Positions 33,241 to 43,273 of a DNA stretch of 48,511 nt are shown one piece after another (position 1 is the first letter of the stretch; each line of letters starts with the position of its first letter). The notes under the pieces were generated by a model. That model worked only from the letters and a program-made list of their open reading frames with translations. It was not told where the DNA came from and did not search any database. The DNA is from Alphaproteobacteria bacterium (GTDB lineage: Bacteria; Pseudomonadota; Alphaproteobacteria; UBA828), in NCBI GenBank assembly GCA_022826345.1, contig JAJDVB010000213.1, positions 1 through 48,511 on the forward strand, in the 5' to 3' direction. The position numbers were made by a program, and so were the translations under genes.

Positions 33241-34242
33241 ATGAAACCAAGGGTCTCGATCTTCGCCATGGGCGGGACCATCGCCATGGCCGAGCGTGGG
33301 GAACACGGTGTCAAACCCTCCCTGCGTGCCGGCGCGCTGGTGGAGGCGGTGCCGCAGCTTGCCGAGGTCGCGTCCATCGAGGCCGAGACCTTCCGCCTGC
33401 TGCCGAGCCCGGAGGTCACGATCCCCGATCTGTTCGCGCTGGCCGACGCCATCGAGCAGGCCGTGGCCAATGGCGCTCGCGGCGTGGTCGTCACGCATGG
33501 CACCGACACGATGGAGGAGTCGGCCTTCGTGCTCGACCGCATCCTCGGCCTCAATGCCCCCGTGGTGCTGACCGGTGCCATGCGCAACCCGACCCTTGCC
33601 GGGCCCGACGGGCCGGCGAACCTGCTGAACAGTGTGGGCCTCGCCGTGCACGAGCCTGCGCGCGGTCTCGGCGTCATGGTGGTGATGAACGACGAGATCC
33701 ACGCCGCGCGCTACGTGCAGAAAGGCGTGACCTCGAACCCGGCCGCGTTCCGCTCGATGCCGGCCGGGCCGCTCGGCTGGTTCGCTGAGGGCGCGGTGCG
33801 CCTCGCGGGCCGGCCGGGTCCCCGCCGCACGATCGCGGTGGCCCGCGACGCCGAGGTAGCGCCGGTGGCGCTGCTTACCGTGACGCTCGGCGACGATGGC
33901 CGATTGATCGATCGGGCGCTGGACTCGGGCTACCGGGGGATCGTGATGGAGTGCACCGGCGGGGGCCACGCCGCGGCCTGGATCGCCGACAGGCTCGCAG
34001 ACGCGGCTCGGCGCGTGCCGGTGGTCATGGCATCCCGCACCGGCGCTGGCGAGATGCTGCGCCAGACCTACGACTTCAAGGGCTCGGAGATCGATCTGCT
34101 GGCACGCGGACTGATCAGTGCCGGCTGGCTCGACGGCCTCAAGGCGCGCCTGCTGCTCACGCTGCTGTTGATGGCCGGCGCCGACAACGCGGCAATCCGA
34201 GAAGAGTTCAGCGCCTGGCTCGATCCCGCCCCGACGCGGTGA
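33241..34242 (+). CDS. L-asparaginase family protein (type I/II fold)
   Basis: A 333-residue asparaginase-glutaminase fold protein. The two catalytic threonine loops are visible: MGGTIAM with Thr13 and THGTDTMEES with Thr88-Asp89. A GGGHAAAW hinge and a C-terminal domain (RTGAGEMLRQTYDF) complete it. It deamidates asparagine, glutamine or related amides to acid and ammonia. No signal peptide is seen, so it is cytoplasmic. The RTGAG/TYDF stretch is a known feature of microbial asparaginases. It is co-transcribed with the unknown gene at 32656. Confidence 0.9.
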   Translation: MKPRVSIFAMGGTIAMAERGEHGVKPSLRAGALVEAVPQLAEVASIEAETFRLLPSPEVTIPDLFALADAIEQAVANGARGVVVTHGTDTMEESAFVLDRILGLNAPVVLTGAMRNPTLAGPDGPANLLNSVGLAVHEPARGLGVMVVMNDEIHAARYVQKGVTSNPAAFRSMPAGPLGWFAEGAVRLAGRPGPRRTIAVARDAEVAPVALLTVTLGDDGRLIDRALDSGYRGIVMECTGGGHAAAWIADRLADAARRVPVVMASRTGAGEMLRQTYDFKGSEIDLLARGLISAGWLDGLKARLLLTLLLMAGADNAAIREEFSAWLDPAPTR

Positions 34243-35915: not shown

Positions 35916-37328
35916 CTAAAATTTCTTCCACCAGGGGGTGCGGCCGCCGAGGCCCACCATGTCCACGCCGGTCATGAGCGAGACGTCGTAGGTCAGCGCG
36001 CGGAGGTCGTTGGGGTCGAGGTCGCTCACCCGGTTCTTGCCGCAGGCGCGGGCGAAGAGCTGGATCTCCATGGTGAGCGCGTTGAGGTAGTTGGTCACGC
36101 TGTCGGCCGCCTCGTCCACGTCGAGGCGTTCCATCAGCTTGGGCAGCTGGGTGGTGATGCCGACCGGACAGAGGCCCGTGTGGCAGTGCTGGCACTCGTA
36201 GGGCGAGGTGCCGAGGCGGGCGTAGTCCTCCAGATAGATCGGCTTGTGGCAGCCCATGGCGATGATCGGCGCGGTGCCGAGATAGACCACGTCCGCGCCA
36301 AGCGCGATACACTTCGCCGCGTCCGCCCCGTTGCGAATGCCGCCGCCCACGATGAGCTTCATCGAATCCTTCTTGCCCATGTCGGCGAGCGCTTCCGAGG
36401 CCTCGGCGATGGCGGCGACGGTGGGAATGCCGGCATGGTCGAGCTGAATCGTGGGCGAGGCCGCGGTGCCGCCCTCCATGCCGTCGAAGACGATGGCGTC
36501 GACCCCGGCCTTGGCCGCGATGCGGACGTCGTTGGCGATTCTGGCAGCGCCCACCTTGATCGAGATGGGCACCTTGTACTCGGTGACCTCGCGGATCTCC
36601 TCGAGCTTCATGTAGAGATCGTCGGCCCCCATCCAGTCGGGATGGCGGCAGGGGCTGCGCTGGTCCACGCCCTCGGGCAGGTCGCGCATCTCCGCCACCT
36701 CGTCCGACATCTTGAGGCCCAGCAGCACGCCGCCGGTGCCGGGCTTCGCGCCCTGGCCGGCGCCGATCTCGATCATGTCGGCCTTCTTGAGATCGTAGGG
36801 GTTCATGCCGTAGCGGCTCGGCAGGTACTGCATCACCAGCTTGTCGGAGTAGCGGCGCTCCTCGTGGTGCATGCCGCCCTCGCCGGTGCAGGTGGAGATG
36901 CCGCAGCGGCTCGCCGCCGTGCCGAGCGCGCGCTTGGCGTGAACCGAGAGCGCGCCGAAGCTCATGCCCGCGATCATGATCGGGCGCTCAAGGACCAGCG
37001 GGTTCTCGCAGTTGCCTTCGCCGATCACCACCCGCGTGTCACACTTCTCCCGGTAGCCTTCGAGCGGCATGCGCGAGAGGCCGGCCGGCACGAACACGAG
37101 ATCGTCGAAGGAAGGCAGGCCGCGCCGCTTGGTCGCCTGTCCGCGTATCTGGTAGCGGCCGAGAGCGGCCTTCTCCTGAATCTCCTCGATCACCTCCGGC
37201 GGCCAGACCCCGCTGAAGCTGTCCGGCCGGGGATAGGCGCCGTTGGGCGCCGGCGCCGCGTCCTCCAGAACCTCGACGGAGGAATCGCCCGCATGGGCGG
37301 GGGGCGGTGTGCTCGTGGTCTCGCTCAT
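35916..37328 (-). CDS. FMN-binding glutamate synthase-like protein (MgsC/GlxD type)
   Basis: A 470-residue stand-alone synthase domain related to the GltB central/FMN part. An N-terminal extension (1-45) leads to the TIM-barrel with GMSFGALSVHAKRALG, TGEGGMHHEER, IGAGQGAKPGTGG, ISIKVGAARIANDV, DAIVFDGMEGGTAASP and IVGGGIRNGADAAKCIALGADVV motifs. Cysteines at 379, 382 and 387 (CQHCHTGLCPVG) probably hold a 3Fe-4S cluster, though the first spacing is shorter than in GltB. It would transfer ammonia, made by the partner glutaminase, to 2-oxoglutarate or an amine-derived acceptor. Its ATG overlaps the GXGXG gene by four bases. It is the last gene of the operon that starts at 39814. Confidence 0.9.
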   Translation of the reverse strand: MSETTSTPPPAHAGDSSVEVLEDAAPAPNGAYPRPDSFSGVWPPEVIEEIQEKAALGRYQIRGQATKRRGLPSFDDLVFVPAGLSRMPLEGYREKCDTRVVIGEGNCENPLVLERPIMIAGMSFGALSVHAKRALGTAASRCGISTCTGEGGMHHEERRYSDKLVMQYLPSRYGMNPYDLKKADMIEIGAGQGAKPGTGGVLLGLKMSDEVAEMRDLPEGVDQRSPCRHPDWMGADDLYMKLEEIREVTEYKVPISIKVGAARIANDVRIAAKAGVDAIVFDGMEGGTAASPTIQLDHAGIPTVAAIAEASEALADMGKKDSMKLIVGGGIRNGADAAKCIALGADVVYLGTAPIIAMGCHKPIYLEDYARLGTSPYECQHCHTGLCPVGITTQLPKLMERLDVDEAADSVTNYLNALTMEIQLFARACGKNRVSDLDPNDLRALTYDVSLMTGVDMVGLGGRTPWWKKF

Positions 37329-38029
37329 AGCACATCCTTCCACGCAGCGAAGTCATGCTTGTTGAAATGCCACAGCTTGCGGTCCGACTGGAGCTTGCGG
37401 AACCTTGCGGGCGCCTTGATCTCGTAGCGGTCGAGCAGCGCCGCCACCTCGTCGAGCTCGCCGTTCTCGGCATCGACCTCCGCGAGCCCGGAGCCCAGCT
37501 CCTTCGCCGTGCCGCCGAGGAAGATCACGCCCTGATACATGGAATCACCGAGCCCAGTATCGGCGTCGCCGCAGACGATCATGCGGCCGTTCTGCATCAT
37601 GAAGCCGGACATGTAGCCGGTGTTGCCGCCGACGATGAGCTCGCCCTTCTTCAGGATCATGCCGGAGCGCGGCCCTGCATCGCCGCGCACGACGACGCGC
37701 CCGCCGCGGATGGACGGCGCCGCCGAGGTGGCGGCGTTGCCGTGCACGACCACCTCGCCGCTCATCAGGTTGTCGGCCAAGCCCCAGCCGCAGGTGCCGT
37801 GGACCTCGGCGGTGATGCCGTCGCAGAGCCCGGCGGTGAACGAGCCCACGTGGCCGCGGTAGACGACGTGGATGGGCTTGAGCACCGAGACGCCGAGATT
37901 GTGCCGGGCCTGCGGGTTGAGCAGCTCGACCTCGGGGACGCCGTCGTCCGCCGCGCGGCGAATCTCCTCGTTGATCGCGCGCGTCGGCCGGCCGGCGCAG
38001 TCGATGGTCAGTGAAGCGGAATTCGCCAC
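37325..38029 (-). CDS. GXGXG-motif glutamate synthase-like subunit (MgsB/GlxC type)
   Basis: A 234-residue right-handed beta-helix domain equal to the GltB C-terminal GXGXG region. Repeated glycine turns are visible (HVGSFTAGLCDG, HGTCGWGLADNLMSGEV, VHGNAATSAAPSIRGG, VVRGDAGPRSGMILKKG, IVGGNTGYMSGFMMQNG). The start is GTG at 38029. It overlaps the glutaminase gene by 22 bases and the synthase gene by four, so all three are translationally coupled. It is structural, holding the catalytic modules in register. A long C-terminal helix follows (DEVAALLDRYEIK). Confidence 0.88.
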   Translation of the reverse strand: MANSASLTIDCAGRPTRAINEEIRRAADDGVPEVELLNPQARHNLGVSVLKPIHVVYRGHVGSFTAGLCDGITAEVHGTCGWGLADNLMSGEVVVHGNAATSAAPSIRGGRVVVRGDAGPRSGMILKKGELIVGGNTGYMSGFMMQNGRMIVCGDADTGLGDSMYQGVIFLGGTAKELGSGLAEVDAENGELDEVAALLDRYEIKAPARFRKLQSDRKLWHFNKHDFAAWKDVL

Positions 38030-38913
38030 GTCACCACCTCGCCGGCCCCGGGCTCCCAGACCTCGATGTCCTCATCGATGCCGTCGCGCAGCGCCCAGCA
38101 ATCGGACGAAACCGCCACCAGCCGGTCGGTCTCGCCCACCACCAGCGGCTTGGCCGCGTAGGGGTCCTTGACCACGCCCACCTCGTCCTTAGTCACGGCG
38201 ATGTAGGTGAAGCAGCCGTCGAGGATCGTGACCGAGCGCTCAAGCGCCTCGTGGAAGCTTGCGCCCTTCTTCATCTCGTCGATCAGCGCGACGGCGATCA
38301 CCTCGGAATCGTTGCCGGTGGTGAAGGTGTAGCCCGCGCGCTCGAAGTGATAGCGCAGGTGGTGGAAGTTCGTGATGTGGCCGTTGTGCATGATGACCAA
38401 ATCGCGGTGCAGCCTGGCGGAGAGCGGCTGCCCGTGGGTGAAGTCGATGGTGCTCTCGGTGGCGAAGCGTGTGAGCCCCATGGCGAGCGGCCCGTCGTAA
38501 TCGGTGATGGAGAAGCGCTCCTCGAGGGTCTCCACGCCCCCCAGGTGCTTCACCACTTCGAGCTGGTTGCCGATGCTGGCAATGCTGTAACCGGGCCCGA
38601 GCGAGTCGATCGCATCCACCAGCGCCTTGTCGTCGCCGTCGTAACGGACCGTGGTACGGATGAAGCCTTCGCCGTCGGTGGCGCTTTCCACCCGACCGAG
38701 CTCGTCCAGCAGCCCGAGCACGCGGCCGCCGCCGCCGGGCTCCTCGCAGTTGATGCCGACGTAGAGGCGATCCTCGCTGGCGGGCTGGATCAGGGCGAGG
38801 CCGGTCGAATCCGGTCCGCGCCGGAAGATGCCGTCCAGCACGCGATAGGCGATCTCGCCGGTGCGGCGATGATGCTCCGTGGTCTTGAAGAAGACGCCGC
38901 CGAGGCCGCACAT
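38008..38913 (-). CDS. Class II glutamine amidotransferase (MgsA/GlxB type)
   Basis: A 301-residue N-terminal-nucleophile glutaminase. The nucleophilic Cys2 follows the initiator Met (MCGLGGVF), and family residues are intact: RGPDSTGLA, TRFATES, MHNGHITN, and GNDSEV. It therefore should release ammonia from glutamine for the synthase module. The gene is separate, as in MgsA/GlxB, and not fused as in GltB. It lies 24 bases after the 159-residue gene and overlaps the GXGXG gene by 22 bases. No glutamine or gamma-glutamylmethylamide synthetase gene is in the window. Confidence 0.9.
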   Translation of the reverse strand: MCGLGGVFFKTTEHHRRTGEIAYRVLDGIFRRGPDSTGLALIQPASEDRLYVGINCEEPGGGGRVLGLLDELGRVESATDGEGFIRTTVRYDGDDKALVDAIDSLGPGYSIASIGNQLEVVKHLGGVETLEERFSITDYDGPLAMGLTRFATESTIDFTHGQPLSARLHRDLVIMHNGHITNFHHLRYHFERAGYTFTTGNDSEVIAVALIDEMKKGASFHEALERSVTILDGCFTYIAVTKDEVGVVKDPYAAKPLVVGETDRLVAVSSDCWALRDGIDEDIEVWEPGAGEVVTWRIPLH

Positions 38914-38937
38914 GGGCTCCGCTCCCCGGTTGCGCCG

Positions 38938-39417
38938 TCAGCCGGCCGCCGGCAGCAGCTTGACCTTCTTGTCGAGATGCGCCCAGGGGATCATCGCGTC
39001 GATCCAGGCGTTGATGCGGTCGAACGCGACCATCGCCGCCTCGCAGACCTGCACCACCTCGTCATGGTTCTTGGCGCCGCCAGCTTCGAAGTAGGCGGCG
39101 AGCTCGCGCACGAGCCTGACCGTGCTGGTGAGCTTCCACTTGGCGAGCCGGCCGGCATGGCGGTTGAGCAGCGCCGCCGCCATCTGGTTGAGCGCCGCCG
39201 GCGGCAGGGCCTTGTCGAGCGCGAGCTGGCGGACGACCTGGATGTTCTCGCCCATCCAGAAGGTGTTGAAGTTGGCGTAGAGGACGGGCGGCATGTTGCC
39301 CATGGGCGGCAGGCTGTGTTCGCGCAGCCGGGTGATGTCGCCGGGCTCGGAATGCCAGTTGCGCCGGCCGAAGCGCTCCAGCCGGTCGATCATCGCTGAG
39401 GTCTCGGTTGCGGCCAT
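38938..39417 (-). CDS. 159-residue protein of unknown function in the split glutamate synthase operon
   Basis: I do not recognise a named family. The protein is helical and reads like a small enzyme or regulatory subunit: MIDRLERFGRRNWHSEPGD, LPPVLYANFNTFWMGENI-type segments, ALNQMAAALLNRHAGRLAKWK, and VQVCEAAMVAFDRINAWIDAMIPW. Trp residues are frequent. It lies four bases downstream of the DUF3830 gene and 24 bases upstream of the glutaminase gene, so it is part of the same transcript. Its restriction to this arrangement would make it a candidate new subunit or substrate-specific enzyme. Confidence 0.75.
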   Translation of the reverse strand: MAATETSAMIDRLERFGRRNWHSEPGDITRLREHSLPPMGNMPPVLYANFNTFWMGENIQVVRQLALDKALPPAALNQMAAALLNRHAGRLAKWKLTSTVRLVRELAAYFEAGGAKNHDEVVQVCEAAMVAFDRINAWIDAMIPWAHLDKKVKLLPAAG

Positions 39418-39421
39418 GGCC

Positions 39422-39814
39422 CTACGCCTCCTCGACGAGTTCGAGCCGGACCGGCAGCGGACCCTTGGCGAGGATCTTCTTGCCCGCGGGCTTCAGATGC
39501 TCCAGCCCGTCCACGATCTTCGCGAACACGCTGACCTTCCCGAACGGCTTGGTGTCGCCGTAGAAGATGCAGGCGGTCTGGCGCCCCGGATAGAAGCCGA
39601 TGTCGCCGGGCTTGACGTTGAGAATCTCGTTCTCCGAGTTGCAGTAGAACGGGAGCATCACGATCAGCTCGTCGCCCGCGAACTTGGCGTGCACCGAGAA
39701 GCTCTCGCAGGGCAGGCTCTCGGTGAACGCCTTGACGACGTTGGGCGCCTTGCCACCCAGCAGTTCGGCGACGACCGTGCGGCCGTCGATGGTCATTGCG
39801 AAACGATCCGCCAT
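39422..39814 (-). CDS. DUF3830 family cyclophilin-like protein
   Basis: A 130-residue protein of the DUF3830 family, a cyclophilin-like beta-barrel. Motifs are FAMTIDGRTVVAELLGGKAPN, AKFAGDELIVMLPFYCNSEN, GDIGFYPGRQTACIFYGD and a final GPLPVRLELVE. Family function is unknown; members often sit beside amide and amino-acid catabolic genes, which fits two amidases at 40408-43273. GAGGGGAAATC precedes the ATG at 39814. It is the first gene of the five-gene operon running to 35916. Confidence 0.85.
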   Translation of the reverse strand: MADRFAMTIDGRTVVAELLGGKAPNVVKAFTESLPCESFSVHAKFAGDELIVMLPFYCNSENEILNVKPGDIGFYPGRQTACIFYGDTKPFGKVSVFAKIVDGLEHLKPAGKKILAKGPLPVRLELVEEA

Positions 39815-39993: not shown

Positions 39994-40251
39994 TCAGGGC
40001 GTACCGGCGCGGCCCTTTCCGGCACCTGTCGCCTCGCCGATCATGCGCGCCTTTTGCGACGCGATATCGGTGCCTCCCGAAGTGCCTAGATCGAGGACGA
40101 CGGAGCGATCGGTCTCGTCCGGCCGCTCGGCAACGTCACGGTCGATAAGGCGGCGCACGTACTCGGCGAGCGAGACTCCGAGCGCGGCGGCACGCGCGCG
40201 AGCCAGCGCGTGGCGCTTTGGGTCGAGCGATATCTGGGTGCGTACCATCAT
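39994..40251 (-). CDS. Ribbon-helix-helix (CopG-like) protein, orphan antitoxin-like
   Basis: An 85-residue protein beginning MMVRTQISLDPKRHALARAR, a beta strand and helix typical of CopG/RHH antitoxins, then LAEYVRRLIDRDVAE and a long unstructured tail. Two adjacent ATGs (40251 and 40248) are possible starts. No toxin follows. The DNA just after its stop reads ILVNSFAMHAKR, which faintly resembles the start of a PIN toxin and may be a truncated partner. It could instead regulate the DUF3830 or amidase genes, between which it lies. Confidence 0.75.
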   Translation of the reverse strand: MMVRTQISLDPKRHALARARAAALGVSLAEYVRRLIDRDVAERPDETDRSVVLDLGTSGGTDIASQKARMIGEATGAGKGRAGTP

Positions 40252-40407
40252 TGTGGCGCCATTATGCCATCGGCAGGCCGATGTGTGTTGGCATCGTGGC
40301 CATGCAGTACAGGCAGGCGTGGCGCGGTTCTGCATGGGGAGATTGGCTTTGCGTGGCCGGCGGCTTTGGCGTTCAATCGGCCGCCACCACGGAGAGGGGA
40401 GATTCGG

Positions 40408-41805
40408 ATGTCTGATCTGCACGAGCTGATGCTGACCGAGGTCGCGGCGAAGATTCAGTCGCGGGAGGTGTCCGCCGCTGAAATCACCGCCCACACGCTC
40501 GCGCGGATCGAGCGGCTGGACGGCACGCTCCGCAGCTATGCCACCGTGATGGCCGACGTCGCCACCGAACAGGCGGCGCAGGCGGACGCGGAGATCGCGA
40601 ACGGCGCGGCGAGAGGCCCGCTGCACGGCGTCCCCTTCGGCCTCAAGGACCTCTGCCTGACCAAGGACGCGCCCACGCATGTGGGCTCGGTGGCGCTCCA
40701 CAACTGGAGCCCCGGCGTGGACGGCACCGTGGTGGCGCGGCTCAGGGAGGCCGGCACGGTCTTCGCCGGCAAGCTGCAGATGACCGAGGGGGCTTATGCG
40801 GTGCATCACCCCTCGATCGCGCCGCCGGTCAACCCGTGGCACCCCGACTACTGGACCGGCGTCTCGTCGAGCGGCTCCGGCGTCGCCACCACGGCCCGGC
40901 TCTGCTACGGCTCGCTCGGGACCGACACCGGCGGCTCGATCCGCTTCCCCTCGCAAGCCTGCGGCGTGACCGGGCTGAAGCCCACCTGGGGCCGGGTGAG
41001 CCGGGCGGGTGCCTTCGCGCTCTCCGAGACCTTGGACCACATCGGGCCGATGGCGCGCTCTGCCGCCGACTGCGCCGCCATCCTCGGCGTCATCGCGGGC
41101 GTCGACCCCGACGACCCGACCACCGTGCAGGCGCCGGTGCCGGACTACCTCGGCAGCATCGACGCCGGCATCGAGGGCATGCGCATCGGCCTCGACGAGG
41201 CCTATTGCTCGGAGGGCGTAGACCCGCGCGTGACCGCCATGGTCATGCAGGCAGCCGACGTGCTGCGCGGGCGGGGCGCCGACATTCGGCCGATCGCCTT
41301 CCCCGATGCCACGGTCATGGTCGACCGCTGGAACGATTTCTGCGGTGCGGACACGGCCATCGCGCACGAGCCTTACTATGAGGAGCGCAAGGCCGATTAC
41401 GGACCGGTGCTGTCAAGCCTGATCGAGGTGGGGCTCGCGCTGAGCGGCGTGGACCACGCGCGCATCGTGATCGAGCGGGACAAGTTCATCGGCGCGCTCA
41501 ATGCCGTCTTCGCCGATGTCGATGCGATCATCATTCCCTCGCAGCCCTATCCGACGCCTACCAACGCCTTCATGGACACGCTGGGAGCCGAGGAGGGCTC
41601 AGTGGAGCGGCTGATCTCGTTCACCGCGCCGCACGACATGGCGAGGACGCCCGCGATGTGCCTGCCGGGCGGCTTCGACGAGGATGGCCTGCCCCTGGGC
41701 TTCCAGATCGTGGGGCCGCAGCTCAGCGAGGAGCGGCTGCTGCAAGCGGGGCACGCCTACCAGCAGGATACCGACTGGCACAGCCGCACGCCGCCTGCGG
41801 CCTGA
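40408..41805 (+). CDS. Amidase signature family protein (first of two)
   Basis: A 465-residue amidase. The Ser-cisSer-Lys triad is visible: Lys80 in FGLKDLCL, cis-Ser155 in GVSSSGSG, and nucleophilic Ser177 in GTDTGGSIRFP. The C-terminal ends with PLGFQIVGPQLSEERLL. It hydrolyses a small amide, or acts in amide-based carbon-nitrogen catabolism. GGGGAG just before the ATG at 40408 supports that start. The second amidase begins 13 bases after the stop. It diverges from the RHH gene. Confidence 0.92.
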   Translation: MSDLHELMLTEVAAKIQSREVSAAEITAHTLARIERLDGTLRSYATVMADVATEQAAQADAEIANGAARGPLHGVPFGLKDLCLTKDAPTHVGSVALHNWSPGVDGTVVARLREAGTVFAGKLQMTEGAYAVHHPSIAPPVNPWHPDYWTGVSSSGSGVATTARLCYGSLGTDTGGSIRFPSQACGVTGLKPTWGRVSRAGAFALSETLDHIGPMARSAADCAAILGVIAGVDPDDPTTVQAPVPDYLGSIDAGIEGMRIGLDEAYCSEGVDPRVTAMVMQAADVLRGRGADIRPIAFPDATVMVDRWNDFCGADTAIAHEPYYEERKADYGPVLSSLIEVGLALSGVDHARIVIERDKFIGALNAVFADVDAIIIPSQPYPTPTNAFMDTLGAEEGSVERLISFTAPHDMARTPAMCLPGGFDEDGLPLGFQIVGPQLSEERLLQAGHAYQQDTDWHSRTPPAA

Positions 41806-41818
41806 GGGGGACGGCACC

Positions 41819-43273
41819 ATGGCTGCGAACGGCGAGCTTTGGCGACTCAGCGCGGCCGAGGTCGTCGACCTGCTCCGCCGGCGGGAGGTTTCGCCGCTGG
41901 AGCTGGTGGAGGCGAGCGCCGAGCGGATCGCGGCGACCGACGGCCACGTCAACGCGATCCCGACGCTCTGCGTCGACCGCGCGCGCGCCCATGCCGAGCG
42001 GATCATGGCGGAGGACGCCGGCACCGAGCGCCCGCCGGGCTGGCTCGGCGGGGTGCCGATCGCGGTCAAGGACCTGGTGGAGGTCGAGGGCGTGCGCACC
42101 ACCTGGGGCTCGCCGATCTACGCCGACCATGTGCCGCCGCGCTCGGACATCGTGGTCGAGACCCTGGAGGCGCGGGGCGCCATCGTCATCGGCAAGTCCA
42201 ACACGCCCGAGTTCGGCGCCGGCGCCAACACCTTCAACGAGGTGTTCGGCAAGACCCGCAACCCATGGAACACCGACAAGACCTGCGGCGGCTCCTCGGG
42301 CGGCTCGTCCACGGCATTGGCGACCGGCCAGGTCTGGCTCGCGACGGGCTCGGACCTAGGCGGCAGTCTGCGGATACCCGCGAGCTTCTGCAGCGTCTTC
42401 GGCATGCGGCCCAGTCCGGGCCGCGTCGCCCACGGTCCGAAGCATTTGCCCTTCGAGGGGCTGATGGTGGACGGCCCCATGGCGCGCAACGCGCGGGACT
42501 GCGCGCTCATGCTCGATGCCATGAGCGGCGCCAGTCCCGAAGACCCGCTCTCCATCGAAGCACCGGCGGAGAGCTTCGCCGAAGCAATCACCACGCTGCC
42601 GGCGCCGGGCCGGATCGCCTACAGCCCGGACCTGGGCCTGCTGCCGGTGGACCGCGAGGTGACGGCCGTCTGTGCAGGCGCGGTGGAGACGCTGGCGGGC
42701 GCGGGCATGGAGGTCGCGGAGGCGTGCCCGGACCTCACCGGCGCGCTCGACGTGTTCCAGGTGCTGCGCGCCGCGCTCTTCGCCGCCGACAAGGGCGAGA
42801 TGCTTGAGACCCACCGCGACGCGCTCAAGCCCGAGATCATCTGGAACATCGAGAAGGGGTTAGCGCTCGACGCCGACAAGATCGCGCGGGCCGAGCGCGC
42901 GCGGGGCGCCATCTATCAGCGCTGCGTGCGCTTCTTCACGCGCCACGACGTGCTGGTCTGCCCCTGCGTGATCGTGCCGCCGTTCGATGTGGACACACGC
43001 TGGGTCGACGAGATCGAGGGCCACCGCTTCGACAACTACGTCGATTGGCTGGGCCTCACCTTCGTGCTGACGCTGACCGCGTGTCCTTCCGCGTCGGTGC
43101 CGGTGGGCTTCACCGAGGCGGGGCTGCCGGTGGGCCTGCAGATTCTCGGTCCGCCGCGCGGCGAGGCGGCGGTGCTGCGGGCGGCGGCGGCGATCGAGGA
43201 GGCGATCCCGCTCGGGACCGACATCCCCATCGACCCGCGCGGCCCCGACGGCACCACGCTCCCGCTCGCCTGA
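41819..43273 (+). CDS. Amidase signature family protein (second of two)
   Basis: A 484-residue amidase with an intact triad: Lys84 (IAVKDLVEVE), cis-Ser160 (CGGSSGGSS), and Ser183 (SDLGGSLRIP). It is a divergent paralogue of the preceding gene and resembles the AtzF/GatA-like or aryl-amidase group. GAGGGGG lies before the ATG. It is co-transcribed with the first amidase, and the pair sits beside a split glutamate synthase operon, consistent with nitrogen release and reassimilation from an amide. The C-terminal half has TACPSASVPVGFTEAGLPVG as in other family members. Confidence 0.92.
   Translation: MAANGELWRLSAAEVVDLLRRREVSPLELVEASAERIAATDGHVNAIPTLCVDRARAHAERIMAEDAGTERPPGWLGGVPIAVKDLVEVEGVRTTWGSPIYADHVPPRSDIVVETLEARGAIVIGKSNTPEFGAGANTFNEVFGKTRNPWNTDKTCGGSSGGSSTALATGQVWLATGSDLGGSLRIPASFCSVFGMRPSPGRVAHGPKHLPFEGLMVDGPMARNARDCALMLDAMSGASPEDPLSIEAPAESFAEAITTLPAPGRIAYSPDLGLLPVDREVTAVCAGAVETLAGAGMEVAEACPDLTGALDVFQVLRAALFAADKGEMLETHRDALKPEIIWNIEKGLALDADKIARAERARGAIYQRCVRFFTRHDVLVCPCVIVPPFDVDTRWVDEIEGHRFDNYVDWLGLTFVLTLTACPSASVPVGFTEAGLPVGLQILGPPRGEAAVLRAAAAIEEAIPLGTDIPIDPRGPDGTTLPLA

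Follow-up and report, generated by a model that had tools for sequence, protein, structure and literature searches.

Two genes resembling the halves of a Pictet-Spenglerase-fold protein are linked to a three-subunit glutamate-synthase-like enzyme in Alphaproteobacteria and other bacteria

Introduction

In the N-methylglutamate pathway a ligase and a three-subunit synthase turn an amine into an N-substituted glutamate, on which a dehydrogenase then acts. The MgsABC system pairs a three-subunit glutaminase/GXGXG/flavin mononucleotide (FMN) enzyme with a glutamine-synthetase-like ligase, and GlxBCD, found with GlnT, likewise consists of three subunits and has a type III ligase close by. The subject of this report is a five-gene operon on the minus strand of contig JAJDVB010000213.1 (GenBank assembly GCA_022826345.1), positions 35916..39814, from an alphaproteobacterium of the lineage UBA828. 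The whole stretch of DNA that was analysed, 48,511 nucleotides long, is called the window. The operon joins two front genes, gene 1 and gene 2 (the pair), to three synthase genes (the trio), and the set as a whole belongs with MgsABC and GlxBCD, as a variant to which a split Pictet-Spenglerase-fold partner has been added. It shares with both systems the layout of the synthase and a ligase. It differs from MgsABC in that synthase and ligase each have a branch of their own and genes 1 and 2 stand in the dehydrogenase's place, a position assigned because the ligase and the trio are read by analogy with that pathway. GlxBCD falls in a separate 23-row clade, among whose listed stretches no match to gene 1 or gene 2 was found. 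Compared with McbB, KslB and cucumopine synthase, the operon holds two separate genes, and these are linked to a glutamate-synthase-like trio.

Classification of genes 1 and 2

Gene 1 (39422..39814, minus strand, 130 aa) represents the DUF3830/cyclophilin-like half of the putative split enzyme, with Pfam matches to DUF3830 (47.6 bits, cut-off 26) and Cyclophil_like (43.6 bits). Gene 2 (38938..39417, minus strand, 159 aa) represents the helical-bundle, Cucumopine_C-like half; no Pfam family exceeded its cut-off, and Cucumopine_C (PF18631) reached only 13.5 bits (cut-off 27). Of the relatives listed for a fused protein, all 62 contain DUF3830 and 12 also contain PF18631. A fused relative gave a profile match to McbB at positions 11-281 of 296 (E 7e-11), and its predicted structure matches McbB in both fold and domain order. 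Its domains are shared with KslB, for which a structure has been solved with the product of tryptophan and 2-oxoglutarate; the domain order in KslB and in a relative on plasmid pRi2659 is opposite to that of the fused relatives. The superfamily fold is thus supported by predicted structure for the fused relative and for gene 2 of the window, and by Pfam for gene 1.

Because fused relatives exist, the front genes are read as one enzyme, and the view that they are unrelated to each other was rejected. The earlier note had described them as two genes of unknown function; on the evidence of the fused relatives, profile and structure matches, this is corrected to two domains of one Pictet-Spenglerase-fold enzyme, whose two halves they look like. 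Haemolysin E was discarded as a relative of gene 2, having given weak local matches only and being absent among the listed structure matches. Literature searches by the name DUF3830 found nothing, those on cucumopine turned up chiefly work on opines and hairy roots, and a split Pictet-Spenglerase-fold partner of such synthase sets occurred in no paper under the searches made.

The active site was compared in 57 non-identical cyclophilin-like domains of the same clade, in split and fused forms, with residues numbered as in gene 1 of the window. K44, E49, E61, N62, C82 and a P-F pair are invariant in all 57, and K44 sits in a HAK or NAK motif. The residue counted as E97 of McbB, which we take to be the catalytic glutamate, aligns with the invariant proline of that P-F pair in 57 of 57, in a sequence alignment whose numbering was offset by our own count. 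The clade of the operon therefore has proline where McbB has glutamate, and an invariant lysine instead; a 25-row alignment of cucumopine synthase and KslB relatives shows an invariant glutamate in a TED-like motif. The fold is thus shared with McbB-type enzymes, and the chemistry probably differs. The DUF3830-like structure 3kop also has a lysine at the aligned place, so the invariant lysine may be a general DUF3830 feature.

Linkage of the pair to the trio

A total of 25 loci with the pair were surveyed. Two end at a contig edge (L026, L033) and were left out, giving 23 assessable loci; L017 was counted as carrying the trio on a partial glutaminase at the contig end. L010 and L020 begin inside the operon, with gene 1 outside the view, and L025 begins inside the trio. 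Trio genes lie beside the pair in 21 of the 23, in bins of Pseudomonadota, Actinomycetota, Chloroflexota and Bacillota, although the collections of loci and genomes overlap (L012 and G001 C75 are contigs of equal length, and so are L019 and G009 C75) and the counts are not independent. The linkage of pair and trio is beyond chance, and the adjacency is not the merely occasional one that would have spoken against the set. The trio is missing at L023 and L024. At L024 no synthase gene lies in the 20-kb stretch; the one FMN protein of that genome is on another contig and is 69% identical to that of L022.

In the window's family, 14 of 21 genomes gave a match to the profile of gene 2. When genomes were drawn evenly from the window's class, 4 of 385 matched, every one of them belonging to that family; a likewise even draw from the Desulfovirgula phylum yielded 1 of 398, the Desulfovirgula genome itself.

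Phylogenetic position of the synthase

A tree of the FMN subunit was built from 58 proteins, from which near-duplicates at 98.5% identity and pieces shorter than 380 residues had been dropped, and a second tree was built without the distant outgroup L043. All but one of the 21 rows labelled as pair-linked form one branch, with support 87/78, or 90/77 without the far outgroup; two of these 20 are L078 (genome G013, without the pair) and L077 (genome G016, with part of gene 2). The branch is separate from the 23-row GlxD-like clade, in which 21 rows have a GlnT-like gene in their stretch, and from a 12-row clade presumed to be MgsC-like, a label taken from an upstream ligase-like gene in three members with longer flanks (L093, L095, L098) and from no tested enzyme. 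Membership in either clade, among the proteins sampled, was rejected on the placement in the tree. The remaining row, that of Desulfovirgula, has a long branch and is placed apart from the others; a single clade of all 21 was not rejected (approximately unbiased test, p 0.352).

A synthase branch of its own is thus likely more than proven, with moderate support. The earlier note had predicted a separate clade always accompanied by DUF3830 and the 159-residue gene. The synthase is indeed nested in neither the GlxD-like nor the presumed MgsC-like clade and nearly always accompanies the pair; the support of 90/77 is not decisive, the Desulfovirgula row stands apart and two genomes lack a complete pair. 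L097:6662-14276 (G023) also holds a trio, whose neighbours are a divergent ligase and a gene resembling aldehyde dehydrogenase, and gave no match to gene 1 or 2. Its FMN protein, 59% identical to that of the window, is a long branch and perhaps a further type.

Glutamine-synthetase-like ligase

A glutamine-synthetase-like gene is present in 12 of the 25 loci and directly follows the FMN gene in six Pseudomonadota loci. Six copies were scanned, and none reached the cut-off of any of the NCBIfam ligases listed for it. In the window's genus the search covered six of the eight genomes, all other than the window's own, and the ligase was found off the operon's contig in all six at 57-61% identity, with the next paralogue at 33% at most. 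It is in two pieces in G007 and lies deep inside a 302-kb contig in G001. In the Desulfovirgula genome it is also on another contig (58%), and the small bin G411 gave no clear ligase (best match 35%). In a tree made by a quick search without bootstrap, the operon ligases form their own branch, with a Shimodaira-Hasegawa-like approximate likelihood ratio test (SH-aLRT) value of 100 for all 19, and five of the genus copies fall inside it.

The absence of a ligase from the system is accordingly rejected, since the six genus genomes searched carry one away from the operon's contig. The earlier statement that no ligase partner is here holds for the window and not for the system, in which a ligase partner like that of other split synthases is adjacent in relatives and elsewhere in six genus genomes.

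Following the unlinked Desulfovirgula ligase (L122:5322-12031) are genes that by eye resemble a permease and an amidohydrolase, and another gene of the ligase type, which matches at 31%. Luciferase-like monooxygenase genes of different subfamilies occur near the ligase at L018:15343-16446, L019:14994-16259 and L092:11351-12367, the last named by eye and from a weak alignment. Orthology could not be established between the luciferase-like genes of two lineages, which aligned over 84 residues at E 2e-4.

Microcompartment lineages

In two lineages the pair is found with genes of bacterial microcompartments (BMC). The Desulfovirgula bin (L021) has the order trio, gene 1, gene 2, BMC-H, PF06130 phosphotransacylase, EutN-type shell protein, PRK15398-type aldehyde dehydrogenase, RnfC-like protein, two-domain BMC shell protein and acetate kinase. 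At the Thermoleophilia loci (L022, L024, L025) gene 1 comes immediately after genes for an aldehyde dehydrogenase and a BMC-H protein, and at L022 a EutN-type protein follows gene 2. The sole BMC-domain match at E <= 1e-5 adjoins gene 1 in G404 and G409, the genomes of L024 and L025, and all three BMC-domain matches of Desulfovirgula are on the operon's contig. The N-terminal extension of gene 2 at L021 resembles that of the L022 aldehyde dehydrogenase over 44 residues without gaps, a similarity equalled by 1 of 1000 shuffles; the comparison of the C-terminal tail of the Desulfovirgula gene 2 with an aldehyde dehydrogenase tail was unconvincing (32 of 1000).

Shell proteins and an aldehyde dehydrogenase are shared with known metabolosomes at all four loci, and the PF06130 phosphotransacylase, acetate kinase and RnfC-like protein at L021 only. 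Unlike in those systems, the candidate aldehyde-generating enzyme is a Pictet-Spenglerase-fold pair with a synthase trio. The searches made found no paper that joins a microcompartment with an FMN-binding glutamate synthase or a cyclophilin-like protein, and none on Thermoleophilia microcompartments; a named type could exist in the microcompartment catalogue PMC8217296.

Proposed pathway

The operon is read as the core of an amine-utilisation pathway that is built like the N-methylglutamate pathway and ends differently, with a probability of roughly 0.4. Upstream amide hydrolases, in the window two amidases, would release an amine, which the ligase would convert to a gamma-glutamyl amide. The glutaminase subunit would free the amine and channel it to the FMN subunit, where it would condense with 2-oxoglutarate and be reduced to an N-substituted glutamate. 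The enzyme made of genes 1 and 2 would split the latter into glutamate and an aldehyde, possibly via the invariant lysine of gene 1. An aldehyde is proposed as product because the microcompartment lineages suggest one; where it is troublesome, a microcompartment that also contains an aldehyde dehydrogenase would enclose the step. Which amine is used, in which direction the last step runs and what the lysine does are matters of conjecture. The earlier proposal of an uncharacterised amine- or amide-linked glutamate-type enzyme is partly borne out, with the front genes reassigned and a ligase partner added.

Several observations weigh against this reading. Two sister genomes keep the trio, the ligase and a CocE-type neighbour without a complete pair: in G013 (L128:9489-15826) genes 1 and 2 were not found in the middle of an 81-kb contig, and in G016 (L100:8599-15266) gene 1 was not found and about the last 93 residues of gene 2 are left. 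Since their FMN proteins lie inside the synthase branch, these cases are read as loss or assembly fault; unless the bins are misassembled, trio and ligase need not come with the pair. At the Clostridia locus L023:5864-11415 the pair follows hydantoinase A and hydantoinase B genes and precedes an AstE/AspA-like gene, with solute-binding and permease genes further on, and that genome yielded an FMN-type match at no more than 38% and none for the ligase. In the window a search found no ligase, which is thus not adjacent to the operon there. None of the nine genomes searched in the window's family has PF00936, and one BMC-H-like probe gave no match in the window, so that the case for an aldehyde is borrowed from distant lineages. 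The formation of an aldehyde from an N-alkyl glutamate normally needs an oxidant and none is conserved; redox-neutral cleavage would suit some side chains only. Reaction and substrate are proposed from gene content.

Among the alternatives, a rather unlikely one reverses the order of steps. The pair would first cleave an opine-like or lactam-derived compound to an amine and 2-oxoglutarate, and synthase and ligase would incorporate the amine or the nitrogen from it. Plasmid pRi2659 has a cucumopine-synthase relative in the vicinity of hydantoinase A/B and hut genes, and the hydantoinase genes there and directly before the L023 pair suggest ring opening followed by cleavage; the separation of the pair from trio and ligase in G013 and G016 would be expected if it only fed them. 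The dedicated ligase and the aldehyde dehydrogenase and shell genes found with the set are left unexplained by this order. Together with the losses in G013 and G016, the two hydantoinase contexts suggest that the pair may split an N-substituted amino acid that can be supplied by more than one route. The pRi2659 stretch (L034:9599-28354), in which that relative is annotated as hypothetical and stands beside a 318-residue protein annotated DUF3830, is perhaps an opine-catabolism locus.

Biosynthesis is an unlikely explanation. The pair would be a true Pictet-Spengler or imine-forming enzyme acting on an amine or amino acid and 2-oxoglutarate, and the trio would reduce or aminate the product to an opine-like or alkaloid-like compound. 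Such a role fits the fold and domain order of McbB, the domains of KslB with its tryptophan and 2-oxoglutarate product, and the cucumopine-synthase-family sequence relatives on Agrobacterium and Rhizobium plasmids; proline at the position of the presumed catalytic E97 in all 57 domains argues against it, and the hydrolase and transporter neighbours, as well as the aldehyde dehydrogenase and shell proteins in two lineages, look catabolic. It is quite improbable that the products of genes 1 and 2 are accessories of an ordinary split glutamate synthase for nitrogen assimilation, the first as a cyclophilin-like factor for folding or docking and the second as a helical adaptor. Although the cyclophilin-like fold, the tight coupling to the synthase genes and the trio and ligase of G013 and G016 without a complete pair would suit such a role, the fused form shares its domain order with the enzyme McbB, the pair holds invariant polar residues and the L023 genome has it without this synthase type.

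To return to the amine-utilisation pathway, a more specific form of it is put forward only tentatively, with the odds against it. The set would be a third, undescribed class of N-substituted-glutamate pathway, with a dedicated amide ligase, the trio and a cofactor-free Pictet-Spenglerase-fold lyase releasing an aldehyde; the lyase would then serve Thermoleophilia and Desulfovirgula as the aldehyde-generating signature enzyme of a microcompartment type not yet recognised.

Operon structure and neighbouring genes

The operon consists of five open reading frames (ORFs), all on the minus strand, with junctions read directly in the sequence. Besides the pair it encodes a class II glutaminase/amidotransferase subunit (38008..38913, minus strand, 301 aa; GATase_6 63.3 bits), a GXGXG subunit (37325..38029, minus strand, 234 aa, GTG start; PF01493 45.3 bits) and an FMN/iron-sulphur synthase subunit (35916..37328, minus strand, 470 aa; Glu_synthase 329.1 bits). 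Gaps of 4 bp separate gene 1 from gene 2 and of 24 bp gene 2 from the glutaminase gene; the glutaminase and GXGXG genes overlap by 22 bp and the GXGXG and FMN genes by 4 bp. The ATG of the FMN subunit is at 37328, and the version in the ORF list, 475 aa, starts from an upstream GTG. The five-gene arrangement proposed earlier is confirmed by these coordinates, and so are the intact Cys2 and FMN-domain motifs. The glutaminase opens with ATG TGC, giving Met-Cys with Cys2 present, and matches amidophosphoribosyltransferase (E 6e-14); the FMN subunit can be aligned with solved glutamate synthases, GltB among them, across their flavin domain, and contains a CH-x3-CPVG stretch. Glutaminase, GXGXG and FMN/iron-sulphur subunits are thus separate, as in enzymes of the MgsABC and GlxBCD type.

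Amidase 1 (40210..41805, plus strand; PF01425 322.5 bits on 40405-41805) is divergent from the operon, and amidase 2 (41684..43273, plus strand; PF01425 339.7 bits) follows it. The divergent pair of amidases is kept in the window-type loci L009, L011, L012, L013 and L026. A dimethylformamidase-like hydrolase lies near the operon in five other Alphaproteobacteria loci (L014, L015, L018, L019, L033), in three of them alongside a CocE-type hydrolase, and the amide-hydrolase neighbours vary by lineage. Amide hydrolysis as the supply of amine would fit these neighbours, with amidase 1 a possible supplier of substrate. The suggestion that the amidases support use of amide nitrogen holds in the window-type loci; the link is local, and other hydrolases take their place in some relatives. 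Between operon and amidases lies a small minus-strand ORF (39994-40251) with weak ribbon-helix-helix matches under the cut-off (NikA-like, FitA-like), and an asparaginase-family gene is found near the operon at 33241-34242 of the window.

Queries with SoxA and SoxB gave no match in the window, and the sarcosine-oxidase-like dehydrogenase genes of the N-methylglutamate pathway are not beside the operon. Among the 25 loci Sox-like neighbours were found at L020 only, where a soxB/ThiO-like and soxA-like flavin oxidase pair (L020:6276-8961) lies on the opposite strand after operon and ligase and is possibly an oxidative alternative for the last step.

Conclusions

The analysis gives a fold and a likely enzyme family to two genes of unknown function. 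The gene set is common to Alphaproteobacteria, SAR202/Dehalococcoidia, Thermoleophilia and one Desulfovirgula bin, and it provides a candidate signature enzyme for a microcompartment. It suggests a catabolic branch of the Pictet-Spenglerase fold with a different active site, and possibly an undescribed way of amine breakdown.

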